Shown: one piece after another, positions 35,221 through 45,849 of the stretch
Position numbering within the stretch: position 1 is the first letter of the stretch
Layout of the letters: each line of letters opens with the position of its first letter
Source of the DNA: an uncultured Chelatococcus sp.
Lineage (GTDB): Bacteria > Pseudomonadota > Alphaproteobacteria > Rhizobiales > Beijerinckiaceae
Reading direction: 5' to 3'
Length of the DNA stretch: 64,000 nucleotides
Assembly: GCA_937863995.1 (NCBI GenBank)
Contig: CALMIK010000046.1
Span: forward strand, 62,001 to 126,000
Made by a program: the position numbers and the translations under genes
Notes under the pieces: model-generated
Seen by the model: the letters and a program-made list of their open reading frames with translations, nothing else
What the model was told of the DNA's origin: nothing
The model's database searches: none

Positions 35221-37310
35221 CGCTTTACCCACGCCCCCACGCGGAGGGCGACAGGGCTGCCGCGCAGGGGCAGCAGGAGGCAGCATGTTTCTACCCACGC
35301 CCCCACGCGGAGGGCGACACGGTGAGCGCAAGAAGCGCGGTCGGCCGCGGAAGTTTCTACCCACGCCCCCACGCGGAGGGCGACCAGATGCTCCTTGCGG
35401 CCGATATCGCGATGATCGTTTCTACCCACGCCCCCACGCGGAGGGCGACCGCCCTCCCTCATTTTTCCGGGTGCACCGGCGAGGTTTCTACCCACGCCCC
35501 CACGCGGAGGGCGACTTGCCGCGGCAGCCCTGGCCGCGGCGAGCAACCTGTTTCTACCCACGCCCCCACGCGGAGGGCGACCTTGCCGTCTGACTGGATA
35601 CGCGCCGCCACCTGCGGTTTCTACCCACGCCCCCACGCGGAGGGCGACTGTCTGCCTGCATCAACATCAGCGGCCACACCCGGTTTCTACCCACGCCCCC
35701 ACGCGGAGGGCGACGTACAAGGAGTCGAGGGTGGCATCACGTCCGTAAGCGTTTCTACCCACGCCCCCACGCGGAGGGCGACAGGCGGGATGGCTATGAT
35801 CCCGCCCGCCATAAGGAGTTTCTACCCACGCCCCCACGCGGAGGGCGACACGTGGTCAGTGAGTGCACAGGCGGGCGGGCAGATGTTTCTACCCACGCCC
35901 CCACGCGGAGGGCGACGATCGGGTTGTTGTTGTTGTCGATGGGCGCGTATTCGTTTCTACCCACGCCCCCACGCGGAGGGCGACGCGCTCCCGGCCCTGC
36001 TGACAGCCTGTTGAATTCGCAGTTTCTACCCACGCCCCCACGCGGAGGGCGACGTCAACTGACTCCCGGATGATGACGCCGCTATCAGGTTTCTACCCAC
36101 GCCCCCACGCGGAGGGCGACGCGAGATCACGACCGGGCTGCGCGAGATCGGAAAGTTTCTACCCACGCCCCCACGCGGAGGGCGACGGCGCGGGAGCGGC
36201 AGCTCGGCGAATGGGTAACGCGTTTCTACCCACGCCCCCACGCGGAGGGCGACCGCGACAAGCCGCGCGGTGGCAAGGAGCGCGGGAGTTTCTACCCACG
36301 CCCCCACGCGGAGGGCGACAGCGACCCCGAACGACAGCGACGCCAATCTCAAGTTTCTACCCACGCCCCCACGCGGAGGGCGACTGCGCCAGTATCGCGC
36401 GCTGACCGGCGAGGGGAGGTTTCTACCCACGCCCCCACGCGGAGGGCGACCCTCGACCGCGTCATCGAACGGCAGGGAGGCGTAGTTTCTACCCACGCCC
36501 CCACGCGGAGGGCGACCAAGCAGCGCGGTGGGCGAGTATGCTACGGTATAGTTTCTACCCACGCCCCCACGCGGAGGGCGACTTCGCCCCCCCCAAGAGC
36601 GTGATGTTTCCCGCCACGTTTCTACCCACGCCCCCACGCGGAGGGCGACTTCGCCCGACGAGCACCTTGCCGAGCTGCATCGGCTGTTTCTACCCACGCC
36701 CCCACGCGGAGGGCGACATGCGATGGGGGTGTGGTTGGGGTGTAGCGGCGTGTTTCTACCCACGCCCCCACGCGGAGGGCGACCCGAATGGTTTGAGCTT
36801 CTTACGGAGCTTGGTGATGTTTCTACCCACGCCCCCACGCGGAGGGCGACCGCGAGTTCTGAGATTAGCGCTGTTCTCAAAAGCGTTTCTACCCACGCCC
36901 CCACGCGGAGGGCGACAATCCGGGCGCTGCGGGAGGAGGTGGCGGGCCTGTTTCTACCCACGCCCCCACGCGGAGGGCGACGTTCGGCCGGAAGCGCATT
37001 AAAGAGCTGGAAGAAGTTTCTACCCACGCCCCCACGCGGAGGGCGACTGCCGATCGGGAAACCCCATGACCGGTGGTTGAAGTTTCTACCCACGCCCCCA
37101 CGCGGAGGGCGACCGGATAAACTGGCCCTCCAGTGTCCAGCTTTGGAGTTTCTACCCACGCCCCCACGCGGAGGGCGACAACCCTCGATGGCGGCGACCT
37201 TGGTTGCAAGGGCGTTTCTACCCACGCCCCCACGCGGAGGGCGACATCGTGGGCGAACCTTGTTGCCATCGCCGATTTGTTTCTACCCACGCCCCCACGC
37301 GGAGGGCGAC
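35221..37310 (-). CRISPR. Type I-C CRISPR array, 32 repeats and 31 spacers
   Basis: The 32-bp repeat reads GTCGCCCTCCGCG...GGGTAGAAAC on the minus strand, which is the type I-C pattern. I located 32 copies; the 31 from 35287 to 37279 appear identical. The copy at 35221-35252 differs at four of its last five bases on the minus strand, which marks the old, leader-distal end. Spacers are 33-37 bp, most often 34. The newest end is at 37310 next to cas2, so transcription runs on the minus strand away from the cas genes. Open frames across the array are artefacts of the repeat. Confidence 0.98.
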
Positions 37311-37514: not shown

Positions 37515-37805
37515 TCAGACGATCAGTGTTCCGCCCAGGTCGGTTGCGGGCTTGGCGCCGACGTGTTCCACTTTGCGCTGCCAGTTGGAACCCAGATAGT
37601 AATAGCGCAAACTATCGAATTCCGGCTTGATGATGCTCTCGAGGCGCGCTTTCAATTTCGTCCATTGCGCGGGATCTACTTCGATCTCGAAGACGGAGTA
37701 TTGCACGCGCTGCCCAAGATCCCGGCAGGCTTTGGCCACGGCGCGCAAGCGCGCGTCTCCTCCCGCGTCGCTTGTCTTGACGTCATAGGTCACGAGCACC
37801 AGCAT
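37515..37805 (-). CDS. cas2: CRISPR-associated endoribonuclease Cas2
   Basis: A 96-residue ferredoxin-fold protein. [11 protein letters not shown] gives the first strand with the conserved Asp, and [13 protein letters not shown] follows. It bridges two Cas1 dimers in the integrase that inserts new spacers. It starts 9 bp after cas1 ends and is the last gene before the leader. Confidence 0.96.
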
Positions 37806-37814
37806 CAGCGTATC

Positions 37815-38849
37815 CTACTTCCAGAACCATGGGGGATAGGCGTCGATGTCTCCGCGCAGATGCCGGGCCAGCAGTTGCGCCTGCAGGTAAGGGACCAGTC
37901 CCAGCGGCACCTTTTCTTCCAGGAATGGATGCTGCCGTTCCTCTCGCTTGCGCTCCTGCCACGCGGTCAGCACCGTCTTGCGCGCCTCTTCCGACATGAT
38001 CACTGCGCCGCCATCCCGTGTTTCGAAATCGCCTGCCCGCAGTTGGCGCCGGTTGACCAGCGACAGCACCAGCCGGTCGACCAGAACGGGACGCAGTTCC
38101 TCCATCAGATCCAGAGCAAGGCTGGGGCGACCTGGCCGGTCGCGATGCAGGAAGCCCACGGCCGCATCAAGCCCCACGCTTTCGCACGCACTGCGGCAAT
38201 CGTGCGTCAACAGCGTATAGAGGAAAGACAGCAGCGCATTGACGGGATCGAGCGGCGGGCGGCGCGACCGCCCCCGCCAGCGCATGTTCTCATCCGGCGA
38301 GCGGATCAGGTGATCGAACACGGAAAAATACAGGCTGGCCGCCTCCCCTTCCGATCCGCGCATGAGATCGATGGTATCGTCGGCGCGTTGCACGCGTCGG
38401 ATGATCAAGGCCAGACGGTCCGTAATGCCGGCGATTGCATCACGAGCCGAGGGATCGAGCGTATCGCCATAATCCCGCAAGCCACGCATCAGCACGGCGC
38501 GCTGGTTCGACACCTTGCCCATGACGACGGAACGCACGATGTCCTGCGCGTTGTCGGAAGCCTTGTATTGCGCCATTCGCAGCAGGACATTGCCGGTTAC
38601 GGGTCCTTCTATCCGGGCGAGGAACCGGCCGTTGCGATCCAGCAGAACGAGCGTGATCCCTGCAGCCGCGCAAGCCCCCATCAGCGCCGGTGACAGATAA
38701 ATTGCGCCGAAGAGCACCACGGAGGCAAGCAGGTGCATCGGAACACGGGCACGCTCGGCGCCCTCCACCTCCACCACCAGATTTTCGCCATCCTTCCGCA
38801 AGGCGGCGCCTTCCGTGGTGACGTAGAGCGTGTTGAGAAGCTTTTTCAT
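37815..38849 (-). CDS. cas1: CRISPR-associated integrase Cas1 (type I-C)
   Basis: A 344-residue Cas1. Metal ligands are seen as Glu in MRGSEGEAASLYF, His in VGFLHRDRPGRPS and Asp in LALDLMEELRPVL. The ATG at 38849 overlaps the cas4 TGA as ATGA. With Cas2 it integrates spacers at the leader-proximal repeat. Confidence 0.96.
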   Translation of the reverse strand: MKKLLNTLYVTTEGAALRKDGENLVVEVEGAERARVPMHLLASVVLFGAIYLSPALMGACAAAGITLVLLDRNGRFLARIEGPVTGNVLLRMAQYKASDNAQDIVRSVVMGKVSNQRAVLMRGLRDYGDTLDPSARDAIAGITDRLALIIRRVQRADDTIDLMRGSEGEAASLYFSVFDHLIRSPDENMRWRGRSRRPPLDPVNALLSFLYTLLTHDCRSACESVGLDAAVGFLHRDRPGRPSLALDLMEELRPVLVDRLVLSLVNRRQLRAGDFETRDGGAVIMSEEARKTVLTAWQERKREERQHPFLEEKVPLGLVPYLQAQLLARHLRGDIDAYPPWFWK

Positions 38850-39514
38850 GAAAACTCCGCCGTCTCCGACAGAAGCGCGTTCACCATGCGGTCGCGCCAT
38901 GCCTTGACCGGCTTGACGACTGCATCCGGGCGACACAGCTCGATCAGCGAACAAGCCCGGCACCGCGCTCGCTGATGGGTCGGCGGAGGGGTGCGGCGCG
39001 ACGCGAAGACTTCCGCGAGCGCGTCGATGGTCTGTCGCGTCAAGTCCCGCAAAGCGTTATCGAACGGCACCGCCACCCGCCGCTTCGTCTCGGCGTAGAA
39101 CAGCGCGCCCTGCGGCACGCTCGCGCCAGTCATTTCCTCAAGGCAGAGCGCCTGCGCGCACAGCTGCACCTCGTCTGCCCGGTGCAGCTTGGGCTTGCCG
39201 CGCTTGTACTCCACGGGGAATGGAATTTCTCCTGCCTCCCCCGCGTGAAACTCGACCATGTCCGCAACGCCCGCGATGTTGAGGCGCGTCGAGGCGAGCG
39301 GCAACGCCATCACGCGGCGCACGCCGCGCGCCTTGCGCGAGCCGCCCTTGTCCGCCACGGCGTGCAGAACATCGCCTTCCGCCGTGAAGCGGTTCTCGGC
39401 CCACAGCCGCTCCAGGTGAATGAGCGCCGCCTGCCGCAGGCAATAGACCGCGTGCTGGAGGGCGGAAAGCGGGATGGGTTCGCCCTCCTCCGTGTCGCGC
39501 GCCGCGGCCGGCAT
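38846..39514 (-). CDS. cas4: CRISPR-associated exonuclease Cas4
   Basis: A 222-residue Cas4 with the iron-sulfur cysteines split across the chain: one in HAVYCLRQAAL and three in RCRACSLIELC. The PD-(D/E)xK nuclease core is marked by FPVEYKRGKPK. In type I-C it trims prespacers and secures PAM orientation before integration. Coupled to cas1 by ATGA and 2 bp from cas7. Confidence 0.94.
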   Translation of the reverse strand: MPAAARDTEEGEPIPLSALQHAVYCLRQAALIHLERLWAENRFTAEGDVLHAVADKGGSRKARGVRRVMALPLASTRLNIAGVADMVEFHAGEAGEIPFPVEYKRGKPKLHRADEVQLCAQALCLEEMTGASVPQGALFYAETKRRVAVPFDNALRDLTRQTIDALAEVFASRRTPPPTHQRARCRACSLIELCRPDAVVKPVKAWRDRMVNALLSETAEFS

Positions 39515-39516
39515 CG

Positions 39517-40470
39517 TCAGAGCCTTTCGATGATCTCGACGCCCGCGGGCAGATCGTCTCTGTTGATGCGGATGAGATAGTCGGAAAAGGCGCGTGCGGG
39601 CAGCTGGTTGTCCAGCTTCTTGTCGATCGCCTTGAACTCCCCCTCCACGTTGCGGCCGATCTCGATACGGTCGAACAGGGCGTGTGCCGGCGCGTTGCCG
39701 AGCGCGCTGTCGTGCTTGAACACGATGAGCCGGCGCGTCGCCATTTCGCCGCGCGCCGCCGAGCGGTCATGCTCGAACATATTGGCGAGCGCCTCGAACA
39801 GCAGGTCGAGGTCGGCCTCGGAAAAGCCGGTGCGTTCCGCGAACTTGGCCGAGATGAAACCGTGCGCCACATAGAGGCCATAGGGCACGATGTACTTGCG
39901 GCCCATGGTGCGGTTGTCGACGCGGTCCGGCCCCTCCTCGCTGCCTTCCGCCCGCTGCTTCTTTTCCGCCTCGTTGGTCGCGGCCATGCGGGTAATGGAG
40001 ATTTCGAGCGGCATGATCGCCTCGACAGACCGGGCGAAGGTCATCTGCACCGGCCCCTTCACCTGCCCGCAGTTGACGCCGGTGGACATGACGGCGCCGA
40101 AGGTGCGCACGTCGAAGAAGTTCAGGCACATGAAATCGCGCAGCTTCCGCGCTTCCGCATCATCCTTCGGGTTCAGCTTGGCGTCCTTGTCCACCTTGGC
40201 GTCGCCCGGCCGCAGCGCCCGGTAGGCCTGCCGGTGCTTGTCGTTGAGGATAGCGCCTTCCTCGACATAGATATGGAAGCCGTCCAGCCCGGTCTTCGCC
40301 AGTTCCACGTAATTGCGAATCTTGCGTTTCAGGCTGACGTCCGTCACCAGCCCCTTGCTGGTCTCGGGATCGATGCGCGGCAGGTTGCCGGCATCCGGAT
40401 CGCCGTTCGGGTTGCCGTTGGCGACATCGAAGATGAGGGCGAAATCGTAGCGGTTGGCAAGAACGGTCAT
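39517..40470 (-). CDS. cas7: Cascade backbone subunit Cas7 (Csd2)
   Basis: A 317-residue Cas7c/Csd2. The start MTVLANRYDFALIFDVANG and the GNPNGDPDAGNLPRIDPET stretch are diagnostic; VRTFGAVMSTG follows in the core. Several copies line the crRNA in the type I-C complex. Its ATG overlaps the cas8c stop by 4 bp. Confidence 0.95.
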   Translation of the reverse strand: MTVLANRYDFALIFDVANGNPNGDPDAGNLPRIDPETSKGLVTDVSLKRKIRNYVELAKTGLDGFHIYVEEGAILNDKHRQAYRALRPGDAKVDKDAKLNPKDDAEARKLRDFMCLNFFDVRTFGAVMSTGVNCGQVKGPVQMTFARSVEAIMPLEISITRMAATNEAEKKQRAEGSEEGPDRVDNRTMGRKYIVPYGLYVAHGFISAKFAERTGFSEADLDLLFEALANMFEHDRSAARGEMATRRLIVFKHDSALGNAPAHALFDRIEIGRNVEGEFKAIDKKLDNQLPARAFSDYLIRINRDDLPAGVEIIERL

Positions 40471-42224
40471 TGTGCGGCCTCTGCGGATTCGGTGGCGTCG
40501 CCAGTTTTATTGAAGAATTCATTGCGCTGATGGTAGTAGCCGAGGCCGAACAGCGCTTGGTCTTCGGGCGGCAACGAGGTGGGATACGGATCCTCGGTGG
40601 GATCCATCAGCCCCATGATTTCAGACACCGTTTTTTCCAGGTTGACCCGCCATCCCGGCTTCTGCTTGCCCAGTTTCGACAGGTGGTTGGCGGAGCCGCT
40701 GTCCAGGATGGGAAACACCTTGCGGGGCTGGGCGGAAGCAGAACCGTAGAACTTGTCCTTGATGGTGGCATTGACGTTGCCGCCAAGCGCCGCCCTCTGG
40801 ATCTGCTCGTAGACGGCGAAGAGACGCCCCAGCAGGTAGCCCCGGTTCGGGTGTTTCGGGTTGAGCGCCACGGGCGCCTCCTTCTCCATGTTGAAATTAC
40901 GACAGAGCACCGCTTTCAGCATGCTGACGCGGTAGGCATTGATGTCGCCGTCGGCGCGGATGCGCATGAGCGTGGTGGATAGCAGCGTCAGCGGATAGTG
41001 CGCGCCGGTCAGGATCGAGCGCATCCACTCGCCGGCCAGATTGGGCGGCACGTTCTCGCGCTTGCGCTGCACGGCGAGTTCCGACAGGTGACGCCACAGG
41101 CCGGCGTATGGATCGCGCGGCGGCGGAACGATGCGCATGTCGGCGACGTATTGCTGATAATGCTTTGTCAATACGCCGAAATCGTCCTCGTAGTGGAAGC
41201 GGATGGACAGGCGCGCCGCATTGGGGGCAAGACCCAGCACATGGAAGCGCACCCCCTTGGCCAGCTTGGGCTCGATGTCCTCAAGCCGTTGGCCCTTGCG
41301 GATACGCGCGAGATGATCACCGATCTTGTCCGTGTCCGCGGCTGCATCGTCGGCCGCACTGACGAACTGCGCGAACAGGCTTTCGGCCTCCGCCGCCACC
41401 TCGCCGCCGTTCTGTGACCACGCCCAGAAGACCGTTGAGGCATCGCCGATTTGCACCCGATGTCCGCTGCCGGTCTCAAGAAACCGATTGAGCACGGTCG
41501 TGTAGGCGAACGCCGCCGCCTCGGACACGGGAGCGTTGTCGCCCTGCTCGTGCCCGTATGATGTGAAGGCATCGAGGTTGAAGGATACCAGCGCCGCCCC
41601 GGACGATTGAGCCCCCCAGACACCCTTGATGGACGGATGCAGCCGCGCCACCGGACCCGGACTGCCGCTCACGAGGCAGATTTTTGCCTCCTTTTCGCCG
41701 GCGCCCGCCACGGCCTGCCAGAGGTCGCGCGCCGCCGGCCGGTCGTGAATGCGGATATCCCGCAGGCGCTCGCTCTCCAGCGCGAAGACGACATTCTGGT
41801 CCTTCATCTCGTCGGTCCAGCGCGGCGGCGTGAACTGTTCCGGCGTCCACGATTTCAGGAAGAGCCGGAGCGCCTTGAGCCCTTCGTCTTGCGCCCCCTC
41901 CAGAGCCTCAAGGTGTCTGGCGACGAAAGCCGCATGCTCGCCGGCCGTGCGCTTGCCCTCGCCCGCTGTCACGCCAAGAACGTAGGAAGTCTTGTCCCAC
42001 AGGAAGTTCGGCGCGATACCGGCCGTGCGCTTCACCGGCTGCGGCACCAGCAACTGGACCGGCCGCTTCTTCTTGCCGGCACCCTCCCGCAGGTCGACGA
42101 CATGAACGACCGACCCGTCCCCGGCCAGCGAAATCAAAACACCGATCTTCTCCGAGGAGAAGCCATAGGGCGGCGCACCCGGCAGCCGGTCATAAGCTTG
42201 CGCCAGCGACGTCAGGATGCTCAT
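40467..42224 (-). CDS. cas8c: Cascade large subunit Cas8c (Csd1)
   Basis: A 585-residue Csd1-family protein. Supporting segments are AYDRLPGAPPYGFSSEKIG at the N-terminus, NFLWDKTSYVLGV, and RGYLLGRLFAVYEQIQRAAL near residue 455. It recognises the PAM (TTC in studied I-C systems). In type I-C an internal start within this gene usually yields a separate small subunit (Cas11c); I did not pin that start. 4-bp overlaps with both neighbours. Confidence 0.95.
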   Translation of the reverse strand: MSILTSLAQAYDRLPGAPPYGFSSEKIGVLISLAGDGSVVHVVDLREGAGKKKRPVQLLVPQPVKRTAGIAPNFLWDKTSYVLGVTAGEGKRTAGEHAAFVARHLEALEGAQDEGLKALRLFLKSWTPEQFTPPRWTDEMKDQNVVFALESERLRDIRIHDRPAARDLWQAVAGAGEKEAKICLVSGSPGPVARLHPSIKGVWGAQSSGAALVSFNLDAFTSYGHEQGDNAPVSEAAAFAYTTVLNRFLETGSGHRVQIGDASTVFWAWSQNGGEVAAEAESLFAQFVSAADDAAADTDKIGDHLARIRKGQRLEDIEPKLAKGVRFHVLGLAPNAARLSIRFHYEDDFGVLTKHYQQYVADMRIVPPPRDPYAGLWRHLSELAVQRKRENVPPNLAGEWMRSILTGAHYPLTLLSTTLMRIRADGDINAYRVSMLKAVLCRNFNMEKEAPVALNPKHPNRGYLLGRLFAVYEQIQRAALGGNVNATIKDKFYGSASAQPRKVFPILDSGSANHLSKLGKQKPGWRVNLEKTVSEIMGLMDPTEDPYPTSLPPEDQALFGLGYYHQRNEFFNKTGDATESAEAAQ

Positions 42225-42889
42225 CGCAGGATCTCCGGCGAGTGAGGTGGAGGCACCCTGACGATGCCGTTCTCCAGCTTCGCCCGGAAGAACAGCGACG
42301 GCCGGTCCTTGGCGTCATGGTCGATGTCCCACAGCATCAGCCCGAGATCGCGGGTTTCATCGATGGCTTTCGGCAAGGACACGCCGGCCGGCAGCAAGGA
42401 AAAGCGGGCCGCGAATTCGCGGGTGCCAAGGCAGGGCTGATGAAAACATTGCCCGCGCGCCGCGCGCCGGTTGAACATATCGAGGTGCTTGCCTTCGGTA
42501 TCACCCGGGCCGGCCTTGTCGGTCAGCACGAAATGCGCTTCGATGACATAGGCGACATCGACCAGCATGGTGGACGCCCGCTGCTGGCGATCCTCATCAA
42601 CCAACAGCTGCAACCCTTCAAGGCTGCCGCGGTTCATGGCCGTCTTGATCTTGCCCACCGGCGCCTTATGCCCGACTTCGTTGCGACGAATGGACTGAAA
42701 TTTGATGGGCTTGAGAACGTGAATCGCGTCTATCACATATTTTATAGCCGGCTTCCAATGCACCGCCTCCAGAATCCCCCTTGCTGCGGAAGGAGTGAGA
42801 CAATCGTAACTGACACGCTCTACCTTGAGCTCGGCTCTCGTAAAACAAGCGTGGTCGCCCGATACTTCGAGCCTGATGCCATAAGCCAA
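42221..42889 (-). CDS. cas5c: crRNA-processing subunit Cas5c (Cas5d)
   Basis: A 222-residue Cas5c. It replaces Cas6 in type I-C, cutting pre-crRNA to leave an 11-nt 5' handle. LKVERVSYDCLTPSAARGIL and the basic TEGKHLDMFNRRAARGQCF segment with K134-H135 correspond to the catalytic region of characterised members. The start is a TTG at 42889, preceded by AGGGGG; an in-frame TAG just upstream excludes a longer form. Confidence 0.94.
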   Translation of the reverse strand: MAYGIRLEVSGDHACFTRAELKVERVSYDCLTPSAARGILEAVHWKPAIKYVIDAIHVLKPIKFQSIRRNEVGHKAPVGKIKTAMNRGSLEGLQLLVDEDRQQRASTMLVDVAYVIEAHFVLTDKAGPGDTEGKHLDMFNRRAARGQCFHQPCLGTREFAARFSLLPAGVSLPKAIDETRDLGLMLWDIDHDAKDRPSLFFRAKLENGIVRVPPPHSPEILR

Positions 42890-42904: not shown

Positions 42905-43336
<432 letters not shown>

Positions 43337-43356
43337 ACTTCATGCGGCGTCGCTTC

Positions 43357-43408: not shown

Positions 43409-43505
43409 GTCGCGCCCCACGCGGGGAACGTGGATAGAAACTTATTTTATCAAGTTATTTCGTACCTCAATCGCAGTCGGCGAGCCTCTATACAGGCCCG
43501 CTGAC
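43409..43505 (+). ncRNA. Candidate Cas-regulating guide RNA (CreA/CreR-like mini-CRISPR)
   Basis: A 33-nt degenerate repeat (43409-43441) reads GTCGCGCCCCACGCGGGG... and ends TGGATAGAAAC; it matches the array repeat at 26 of 32 aligned positions, with a 1-nt insertion, and 10 of 11 in the 5' handle. CCCC/GGGG keeps a short stem. Then come 34 nt of non-repeat sequence (43442-43475), the modal spacer length here, and a 30-nt imperfect hairpin (43476-43505) that begins GTCG like a repeat. Orientation is opposite to the cas operon. Cas5c could process it and load it into Cascade. Expression is not shown. Confidence 0.6.
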
Positions 43506-43516
43506 TGCCATTCTCC

Positions 43517-45754
43517 TCACACAACCAAGTCCTCCACCGCCAGATAATCGGCATCCTCCCAGAGCAGCCCGACGTCCTCCTTGTAGAGTTTCATGTTGCC
43601 CAGCACTGCAAACTGATTGCCGCGCAATTCCGGATGCATGAAGGCGGCCTGGCCGTTGGCAATCAGCAACGCCCGCGCCTTTGGCGGCACCTGCACCACA
43701 TAGCCCTGCAACTGACGCGCGAGGACGCCGGAGGAGAATTTCTCCACGCCAAGCCGCGTGACCGCGTCACGCGAAGCATCGTCCAGAGCAACGATCACCG
43801 GCTCCATGCCGCTCTCGACCATGCGGAAATCCGCCGCCACTGAGCGATAGGCAAAATCCGTCTGGCCGTGCGGGAGCCTGAAACGGGTGCAGATCTTCTT
43901 TTCATCCAACCCCGTTTCGCCCAGCCTCCAGTAAACCTCCATGAAATAAGCCTGCATGGCTTTGACGGAAAGCAGATCCGGATGCTCGTTCATGATGCGC
44001 TGCATGTCGCCGATCAGTCCCCTGATCTCCGCTGGCGGCGGATAATCGGGGGCGCGGAACACCGTGACAATGCTGTCCGCAACCGGACGCTTCCCCTCCC
44101 GGTTGCAGCGCCCGGCCGCCTGTACGATCTGGTCGAGGCCGGCCTCGGCGCGCCATACCCTTGGGAAGTCGACGTCGACACCCGCCTCGATCAGGCTCGT
44201 TGCGATCACCCTTATCGGCCGTTCGCCCTTCAGCCGCTCCCGCGCCTCTTCTAGAATACAGCGTCGATGCGCGGCGCACTGGCGCGTCGTTAAATGCACC
44301 AGTCCCTCGATCCCCGCCAACCCGGCTTGCCTGTACAGCTCAAGCGCGTGCCTGCGGCTGTTGACGATGACAAGCGCCTGCGGCTCTCCCCGGAGCGCGC
44401 GGATGAGGGCCTCGTTATCCATCTCGCCGGCATGCCGGATGCGCGTCCGGCGCAGCTTGTCCGTCAGCGCTTCGGGATCGGGCGCGAGTTCCCGGCCCGC
44501 AAGCGGCAGGCCATCGCGCAGATCGGCCTGATCCAGCGCAGGTTGCGTCGCGGTGCATAGCACGATGGTGCAGCCGTAGTTCAGCGCCAGTTCGTCCAGC
44601 ATCCGCATGCAGGGTTTGAGCAGGTGACGCGGAATCGTCTGCGCCTCGTCGAGAATAATGACGCTGTTGGCGATATTGTGCAGCTTCCGCGCGCGTGACG
44701 GGCGCGCGGCGAACAGGCTCTCGAACAATTGCACATTGGTCGTCACCACCACTGGCGCGGCCCAGTCCTCCATGGCCAGCTTCAGCTTGTCCCGCTGCTG
44801 CGGTGGCCCTTCCCGACCGTACTTCTCTTCATCGATTGCCGAATGATGTTCCAGCACATGCGCGTCGCCGAGAATTTCGCGAAAAATCGCCGCCGTTTGA
44901 TCGATTATCGACGTGAAGGGGATGGCATAAATAATGCGAGTATGGCCATGCGCCCGCGCGTGATCCAGCGCGAAGGCCAGCGACGCCAGCGTCTTGCCGC
45001 CGCCAGTTGGCACGGTGAGCGTGAACAGGCCGGGCCTTTCCAGTGCGCGCGCACGGACATGGGCGAGGATGTCGCTGCGCAGCCGGTTCAAGGGGGTGTC
45101 AGACTTTTTCCCCTCCATGTAGACGTCGAAAGCATCGTGGAAACCGGGCAGCAATGCCTGCAATGGGCTCCATTCCCGATCCGCCAGCCGCCCTTCCAGC
45201 GCCGCGTAAAAGGCTTCGGTATCCTTGAAATCGGCATCGACGAGGCAGGAAAAGATCATCCGCCCGATGACCGAGATCTGGAACGCCGCATGCGGCATGC
45301 GAATGGAAGAGAAAAGCCCGGGAATGAGGTCCGCGCCGCTGGCGGCAAGCTCCCGTTCCCACGCGGAATCGAGAGCGGCAACGCTTTTCCCTAACCAATC
45401 ATCCAGCGTGCCGGGCGTATCGCCGCGCCGATCCGGCAGACCCGCATGATGGCCGGCAATCGCATAGGCAATCAGTTCGGCGATGCTTCTGTCAGGCCCC
45501 GACGTGAGGGATAGAACCGTCTGCGCCCCGGCCGTCGAGTGATCGACCCCTTCCGGCGCGCCATCGAGACGTCTTTGAAATGCCGCCGAATACTTCCCGA
45601 GATCATGCAGCAATCCGGCCAGACGGGCGGCCTTTTCGAGCTTCAGCGGCGCGGCCATCGCCGCCGCCAGAACGGCAACCGCTTGCGAATGGTCCTTGAG
45701 ATACTGCCAATCGCTCTTGTTGGCGTTCTTGCCCGTATGCGCATAATAAATCAT
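43517..45754 (-). CDS. cas3: CRISPR-associated helicase-nuclease Cas3 (type I-C)
   Basis: A 745-residue HD-nuclease/SF2-helicase fusion. HD ligands are H22, H50-D51 in LLHDLGKY, H102-H103 in AGHHAGL and Asp in LVDADF near 173-175. The helicase carries Walker A TGGGKT (250-255), motif II DEAQ from D369, motif III TAT at 401-403 and motif VI QAAGRCNREG. It degrades target DNA opened by Cascade. The ATG at 45754 follows AGGGAAA; a frame 10 codons longer exists. It is separated from cas5c by 627 bp, unusual for type I-C. Confidence 0.96.
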   Translation of the reverse strand: MIYYAHTGKNANKSDWQYLKDHSQAVAVLAAAMAAPLKLEKAARLAGLLHDLGKYSAAFQRRLDGAPEGVDHSTAGAQTVLSLTSGPDRSIAELIAYAIAGHHAGLPDRRGDTPGTLDDWLGKSVAALDSAWERELAASGADLIPGLFSSIRMPHAAFQISVIGRMIFSCLVDADFKDTEAFYAALEGRLADREWSPLQALLPGFHDAFDVYMEGKKSDTPLNRLRSDILAHVRARALERPGLFTLTVPTGGGKTLASLAFALDHARAHGHTRIIYAIPFTSIIDQTAAIFREILGDAHVLEHHSAIDEEKYGREGPPQQRDKLKLAMEDWAAPVVVTTNVQLFESLFAARPSRARKLHNIANSVIILDEAQTIPRHLLKPCMRMLDELALNYGCTIVLCTATQPALDQADLRDGLPLAGRELAPDPEALTDKLRRTRIRHAGEMDNEALIRALRGEPQALVIVNSRRHALELYRQAGLAGIEGLVHLTTRQCAAHRRCILEEARERLKGERPIRVIATSLIEAGVDVDFPRVWRAEAGLDQIVQAAGRCNREGKRPVADSIVTVFRAPDYPPPAEIRGLIGDMQRIMNEHPDLLSVKAMQAYFMEVYWRLGETGLDEKKICTRFRLPHGQTDFAYRSVAADFRMVESGMEPVIVALDDASRDAVTRLGVEKFSSGVLARQLQGYVVQVPPKARALLIANGQAAFMHPELRGNQFAVLGNMKLYKEDVGLLWEDADYLAVEDLVV

Positions 45755-45849
45755 GTCGTTTCCCTGGCAGGCGGCATGCTTCAAAGCGCTTTTAACGTCA
45801 ATCTCCGCAAAGCGAATTCAAAAATACAGCAATAGGCAGCAACTCCGCA

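Follow-up and report, generated by a model that had tools for sequence, protein, structure and literature searches.

What is a single degenerate repeat of a clustered regularly interspaced short palindromic repeats (CRISPR) array doing between cas3 and cas5c, on the strand opposite to both genes? The question arises in a 64,000-nucleotide stretch of DNA from an uncultured Chelatococcus sp. (contig CALMIK010000046.1, hereafter the window), which carries a complete type I-C locus on the minus strand in the order cas3, a gap of 631 nucleotides (nt), cas5c, cas8c, cas7, cas4, cas1, cas2 and the array. A preliminary description of the stray repeat and its adjoining spacer-like segment proposed a candidate Cas-regulating guide RNA. 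Two kinds of small guide serve as models: CreR, the cas-regulating RNAs of types I-B, I-E and V-A (Liu et al., 2023, Cell Host Microbe 31:1481, as related in PMC13131331 and PMC12737573), and CreA, the guide of the CRISPR-regulated toxin-antitoxin (CreTA) modules described in type I-B (PMC8501985), type I-F (PMC10097628) and type I-E of Citrobacter rodentium (PMC12055562). We find that the spacer-like segment has a partial target in the same gap, which the preliminary description had overlooked. Judged from the sequences, this target, flanked by TTC, and the same arrangement in other type I-C loci lift the element far above chance. The reading that we favour, with a probability of a little under 0.6, is a CreA/CreR-type guide RNA of the type I-C system, most likely a CreR-like repressor of the cas5c operon.

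The stray repeat and its target

The repeat-like part, psiR (GTCGCGCCCCACGCGGGGAACGTGGATAGAAAC, positions 43409–43441, plus strand), folds as a stem, and its re-alignment with the array repeat (GTCGCCCTCCGCGTGGGGGCGTGGGTAGAAAC) again gives 26 of 32 identical positions plus one inserted A. Processing by Cas5c, as known from type I-C systems, would leave the last 11 nt (43431–43441, plus strand) as the 5′ handle of a mature guide, reading TGGATAGAAAC as against TGGGTAGAAAC in the array repeat. The pseudo-spacer psiS (TTATTTTATCAAGTTATTTCGTACCTCAATCGCA, 43442–43475, plus strand) follows, and its 34 nt equal the modal spacer length of the array (range 33–37 nt). The element closes with a 30-nt hairpin (43476–43505, plus strand) that begins with GTCG and has a folding energy of −17.1 kcal/mol (z = −4.75). 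It occupies the position of psiR2, the second degenerate repeat of the common CreTA and CrePA form, and may be terminator-like or a decayed psiR2; one-repeat forms exist (PMC8501985). A strict terminator scan was negative, and an Rfam search of the gap gave no relevant match. The preliminary description thus stands as to the repeat, the spacer length, the hairpin and the orientation, the element lying on the plus strand and the cas genes on the minus strand. By itself, the repeat similarity is borderline across the window (local score 29, equalled by one of 20 shuffles of 61 kb), so that further evidence is needed.

Of all seed matches of psiS in the window, the longest is on the strand of psiR, roughly 120 bp upstream of it. 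It adjoins a TTC (43282–43284, plus strand), a protospacer-adjacent motif (PAM) of type I-C (PMC10865793). Over its first 16 bases, psiS agrees at 15 with the segment that follows (TTATTTTATCATGTTA, 43285–43300), nt 1–11 and 13–16 being identical and nt 12 mismatched. The partial protospacer as a whole (43285–43318, plus strand) matches psiS at 18 of 34 positions. When nt 6 is left free, TTC plus the seed occurs exactly once in the 3.53-Mb genome of the host. We scored pairing over nt 1–17 without nt 6 and 12, which leaves 15 positions; the observed score is 14, and none of 3000 dinucleotide shuffles of the gap reached it, the best attaining 12. The pairing follows that of the type I-B guide CreA, which pairs through nt 1–5 and 7–11 with a TTC-flanked site and leaves nt 6 and 12 outside the pairing (PMC8501985); the TTC and the matches at nt 1–5 and 7–11 are as in CreA of H. 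hubeiense.

Recurrence in other type I-C loci

We assembled the surroundings of cas5c in relatives and in members of other phyla, 110 distinct type I-C loci in all, and scanned their gaps for a handle resembling GTGGATNGAAAC together with a PAM-flanked match. A handle with a matching TTC target is present in 20 of the 110. The gap measures 150 nt or more in 53 loci, which include all 20, and less in the other 57, of which none has the pair; gaps below 100 nt were not scanned and entered the count as negative. The preliminary description had named a lack of handle conservation among loci retaining the gap as grounds for refuting the proposal; the presence of both handle and target in 20 of 53 such loci speaks against that outcome. 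The 34-nt distance to a second repeat is not a trait that the loci share.

The pairs share a positional pattern. Among the 16 best, nt 1–5 match in 16 of 16, nt 7–11 in 13 to 16 and nt 13–14 in 16 of 16, while matches drop to 3 of 16 at nt 6 and 2 of 16 at nt 12 and reach background level beyond nt 17. Mismatches thus cluster at the two positions that were left out of the scoring. These are the positions that type I Cascade does not read. With the PAM requirement lifted, 22 handles had a best site scoring at least 11, and TTC still preceded 19 of these sites. Swapping spacers between loci gave a score of at least 14 in 0 of 462 trials, and of 266 handles outside the gaps, mostly from ordinary arrays of the same loci, none scored 12 or more. 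Close relatives show guide and target changing together: in the congeners L091 and L093 as compared with L092, the remainder of the pseudo-spacer is shared, the seeds differ and the targets differ in step with them. In L099 and L101, two type I-C loci of one genome, nt 13 co-varies and all 15 scored positions match, but the flanking triplets are GTC and GCC instead of TTC.

What the guide may restrain

The complement of the PAM runs straight into a −35-like box (GAA CTG TTGACA), so that TTGACA (43273–43278, minus strand) stands 3 nt from the PAM and points toward cas5c and a GIY-YIG-like gene fragment that precedes it; 17 nt further on comes CATCGT (43250–43255, minus strand), a weak −10. Of 19 non-redundant pairs, 8 have a TTGAC no more than 21 nt from the target on the PAM side, as against a background of 2.1% for stretches taken from these gaps (P = 2.7e-9). 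This enrichment makes the TTGACA box the likely promoter element to be masked by Cascade. Two short open reading frames (ORFs) near the target were considered and put aside: one of 36 codons at 43273 (minus strand), dropped as creT since it overlaps the TTGACA box, and one of 35 codons at 43229 (plus strand), which has a Shine-Dalgarno sequence, overlaps the target and fits no known CreT layout.

In the mechanism that we propose, transcription of the plus strand would yield a guide resembling a CRISPR RNA (crRNA), Cas5c would cut within its repeat-like part to leave the handle TGGATAGAAAC, and the guide would be loaded into type I-C Cascade, which psiS would direct to 43285–43318. Both the loading of such guides and repression through partial pairing are established for other subtypes. 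The pairing would be too short for destruction by Cas3 and sufficient for binding, and the bound Cascade may cover the stretch up to TTGACA and block transcription toward the GIY-YIG-like fragment and cas5c-cas8c-cas7-cas4-cas1-cas2. Because Cascade is itself made from the repressed operon, this would be a negative feedback loop in the manner of CreR, and repression would ease whenever ordinary crRNAs or anti-CRISPRs drew off Cascade. Past the presumed promoter, cas5c (42221–42889, minus strand; TIGR01876, E 1.1e-48) is the first gene that is intact, followed by cas8c, cas7, cas4, cas1 and cas2 (37515–42224, minus strand) and an array of about 32 repeats (35221–37310, minus strand), while cas3 lies on the other side of the gap (43517–45784, minus strand). 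All cas genes of the window were confirmed as members of their type I-C families. The only intact genes downstream of the box in the window are cas genes, which favours CreR-like feedback, and the finding that L091–L093 have no short ORF before the guide fits cas feedback as well. Since the gap also contains a seed-type target that has the type I-C PAM and adjoins a promoter-like box, the proposal of a Cas-regulating guide accounts for the data better than its rivals.

Several observations weigh against it. A strict sigma-70 scan of the gap found no promoter and the −10 is weak, so we infer the promoter from the box and its enrichment; a gene fragment lies between it and cas5c; and the module has been lost in the sister species, so that it is not indispensable. 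Furthermore, in the two closest layouts, L052 and the type I-E module of C. rodentium (PMC12055562), the repressed gene is a toxin and not a cas gene.

The strongest competitor, about half as probable in our estimate, is an addiction module of the CreTA or CrePA type, in which the guide represses a toxin. The window has the order of the C. rodentium module and of L052, in which an antisense guide is followed by the target and the target by a gene on the same strand as the cas genes, and most of the other type I-C loci identified in this survey have small genes with a Shine-Dalgarno sequence at the target. Such short ORFs lie either between target and guide or directly past the target promoter. 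One group, placed between target and guide, encodes membrane-type peptides of 24–33 amino acids with good Shine-Dalgarno sequences (L036, MRLPPVNDRDFWETAVAIVIVGLVRAIRWLMAS, with its relatives L027 and L038, more loosely L074, and also L031), which are candidate CreT toxins of type I-C. A second group encodes peptides of 26–28 amino acids, mostly ending in EPP, in either orientation relative to the cas genes (L032, MSRRRKFLFRMKIGGWEMEMELTVDPP, L070, L015, L017 and L034). L052 has a PIN-domain gene (Pfam PF01850, E 7e-15) downstream of the target. L053 and L049 have PIN-like ORFs in this place, each behind an antitoxin-like ORF; these two cases were identified by eye. These three loci belong to Akkermansiaceae/Verrucomicrobia (gap coordinates on the cas5c strand: L052 745–1186, L053 428–1354, L049 407–1284), and in them the target stands directly before a PIN-domain (VapC-type) ORF that is separated from its antitoxin-like partner; possibly a toxin-antitoxin pair has been placed under the control of Cascade.

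In the window, the toxin candidates are a weak ORF of 31 codons and the truncated GIY-YIG-like ORF. The toxin slot could be filled by the latter, now broken, or by a small RNA or ORF that has escaped recognition in the stretch from target to element, such as the one that begins MRRRFLKRSAKP at 43342 (plus strand), but that ORF has no Shine-Dalgarno sequence and aligns poorly. The GIY-YIG-like fragment (58 codons from a GTG start, with the Shine-Dalgarno sequence GAGG; 43033–43209, minus strand) is homologous to an open ORF of 103 amino acids at the same position in the sister species, which bears out the remnant noted in the preliminary description. In the window it is broken by a stop in place of a tryptophan codon and by a frameshift further on, the homology reaching to about 42920. 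Orthologs occupy the cas3–cas5c gap in the alphaproteobacterial type I-C loci L021 (7675–7983), L022, L006, L064 and L008; the gene is intact without a guide in the last four, and in L021 it is intact beside a drifted guide that has no target. A gene that is truncated here and persists elsewhere without a working guide-target pair is unlike a toxin that needs this antitoxin, and is probably an older resident, possibly an accessory gene. Its GIY-YIG label is likely and not proven: searches of Pfam and NCBIfam gave no match, the PHROG match to a homing endonuclease is weak (E 0.005–0.015), and the top match of a structural model (predicted local distance difference test score 62), UPF0213 BH0048, is non-significant.

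Alternatively, though we regard this as unlikely, the element may be a former CreA or CreR unit that no longer has an effect, as is already the case in the two sister species. The broken GIY-YIG-like gene and the weak −10 speak for decay, as does the history of the module in the genus. Pseudochelatococcus lubricantis (L021) has a drifted ortholog of the element, whose handle reads GCGGACAGAAAC; the hairpin after it is a different one, stable and with an intact stem of its own. The target segment is absent from L021, and nowhere in that genome is there a PAM-flanked match to the drifted seed. In P. contaminans (L022), element and target are both missing. The window, by contrast, keeps the handle, the PAM and 15 of the first 16 pairs. 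Drift of a guide once its target has gone is as predicted for a functional pair and so counts in favour of the guide that we propose, and we tentatively suggest that loss of the module in this genus followed loss of the target.

That the element is a plain defence array with one spacer, or the remaining end of an array, aimed at a foreign target, is very improbable. The length of psiS would suit such an origin, and the genome does hold a degenerate two-repeat remnant of the same repeat family elsewhere (G000 contig C64:52562–52640; L103 1063–1160). The element, however, has one repeat and a self target where a canonical array has at least two near-identical repeats and foreign spacers; psiS has a PAM-flanked partner at a distance of 120 bp, a site unique in the genome, and its seed-only pattern recurs in about 20 other loci and in none of the 266 array handles. 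Mere chance resemblance of an intergenic stretch to a repeat and a seed, conceivable from the shuffled windows for the repeat similarity alone, is the least credible explanation, given the PAM-flanked seed that no gap shuffle reproduced and the drifted ortholog in the same place in a sister species.

Known relatives and meaning for type I-C systems

CreR, as far as the accounts cited above present it, resembles the window element in its stray repeat and spacer-like stretch, in its limited complementarity upstream of cas genes and in its place within the cas locus; the window element differs in belonging to type I-C, in lying antisense in the cas3–cas5c gap with a gene fragment before cas5c, and in being known here from sequence. 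The differences from CreTA are the subtype, the 3′ hairpin where a second repeat is expected and the fact that no intact toxin was identified in the window. In CrePA, a protein toxin is repressed by a CreA-like guide (Shu et al., 2025, as summarised in PMC12737573), and according to that summary the likeness is a protein gene after a target-bearing promoter, the gene being KilA-N there and a broken GIY-YIG-like fragment here. Repression by type I-C Cascade has a precedent in Neisseria lactamica, where Cascade without Cas3 represses promoters (PMC10865793). That CRISPR interference (CRISPRi) system shares with our proposal the type I-C Cascade, the TTC PAM and promoter repression, and differs in being engineered and in using full-length spacers (PMC10865793). 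A literature search found no type I-C example of CreA or CreR, although the supplementary lists of Li 2021 (Science), Liu 2023 (Cell Host Microbe) and Shu 2025 (Nat Chem Biol) were outside its reach.

Cas feedback and toxin control probably both occur in type I-C. More tentatively, these systems may commonly carry a self-directed guide in the cas3–cas5c gap, many restraining toxins of new kinds (a membrane peptide, a second type of short peptide with EPP at most of its ends, or a toxin of the PIN/VapC type recruited from a toxin-antitoxin pair) and others, probably including that of the window, restraining the cas operon. If this is true, RNA-guided self-control of CRISPR systems would extend to type I-C, which is common in bacteria and also serves for CRISPRi, and there would be an account of why many type I-C loci have a gap between cas3 and cas5c. 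The roughly 20 concrete guide-target pairs come with a testable rule, namely TTC followed by pairing at nt 1–5, 7–11 and 13–16 with nt 6 and 12 free, and their loci may be a source of small candidate toxins restrained by Cascade. They also call for caution, in that the transfer of type I-C cassettes may carry along, or cut, a regulator or a toxin.
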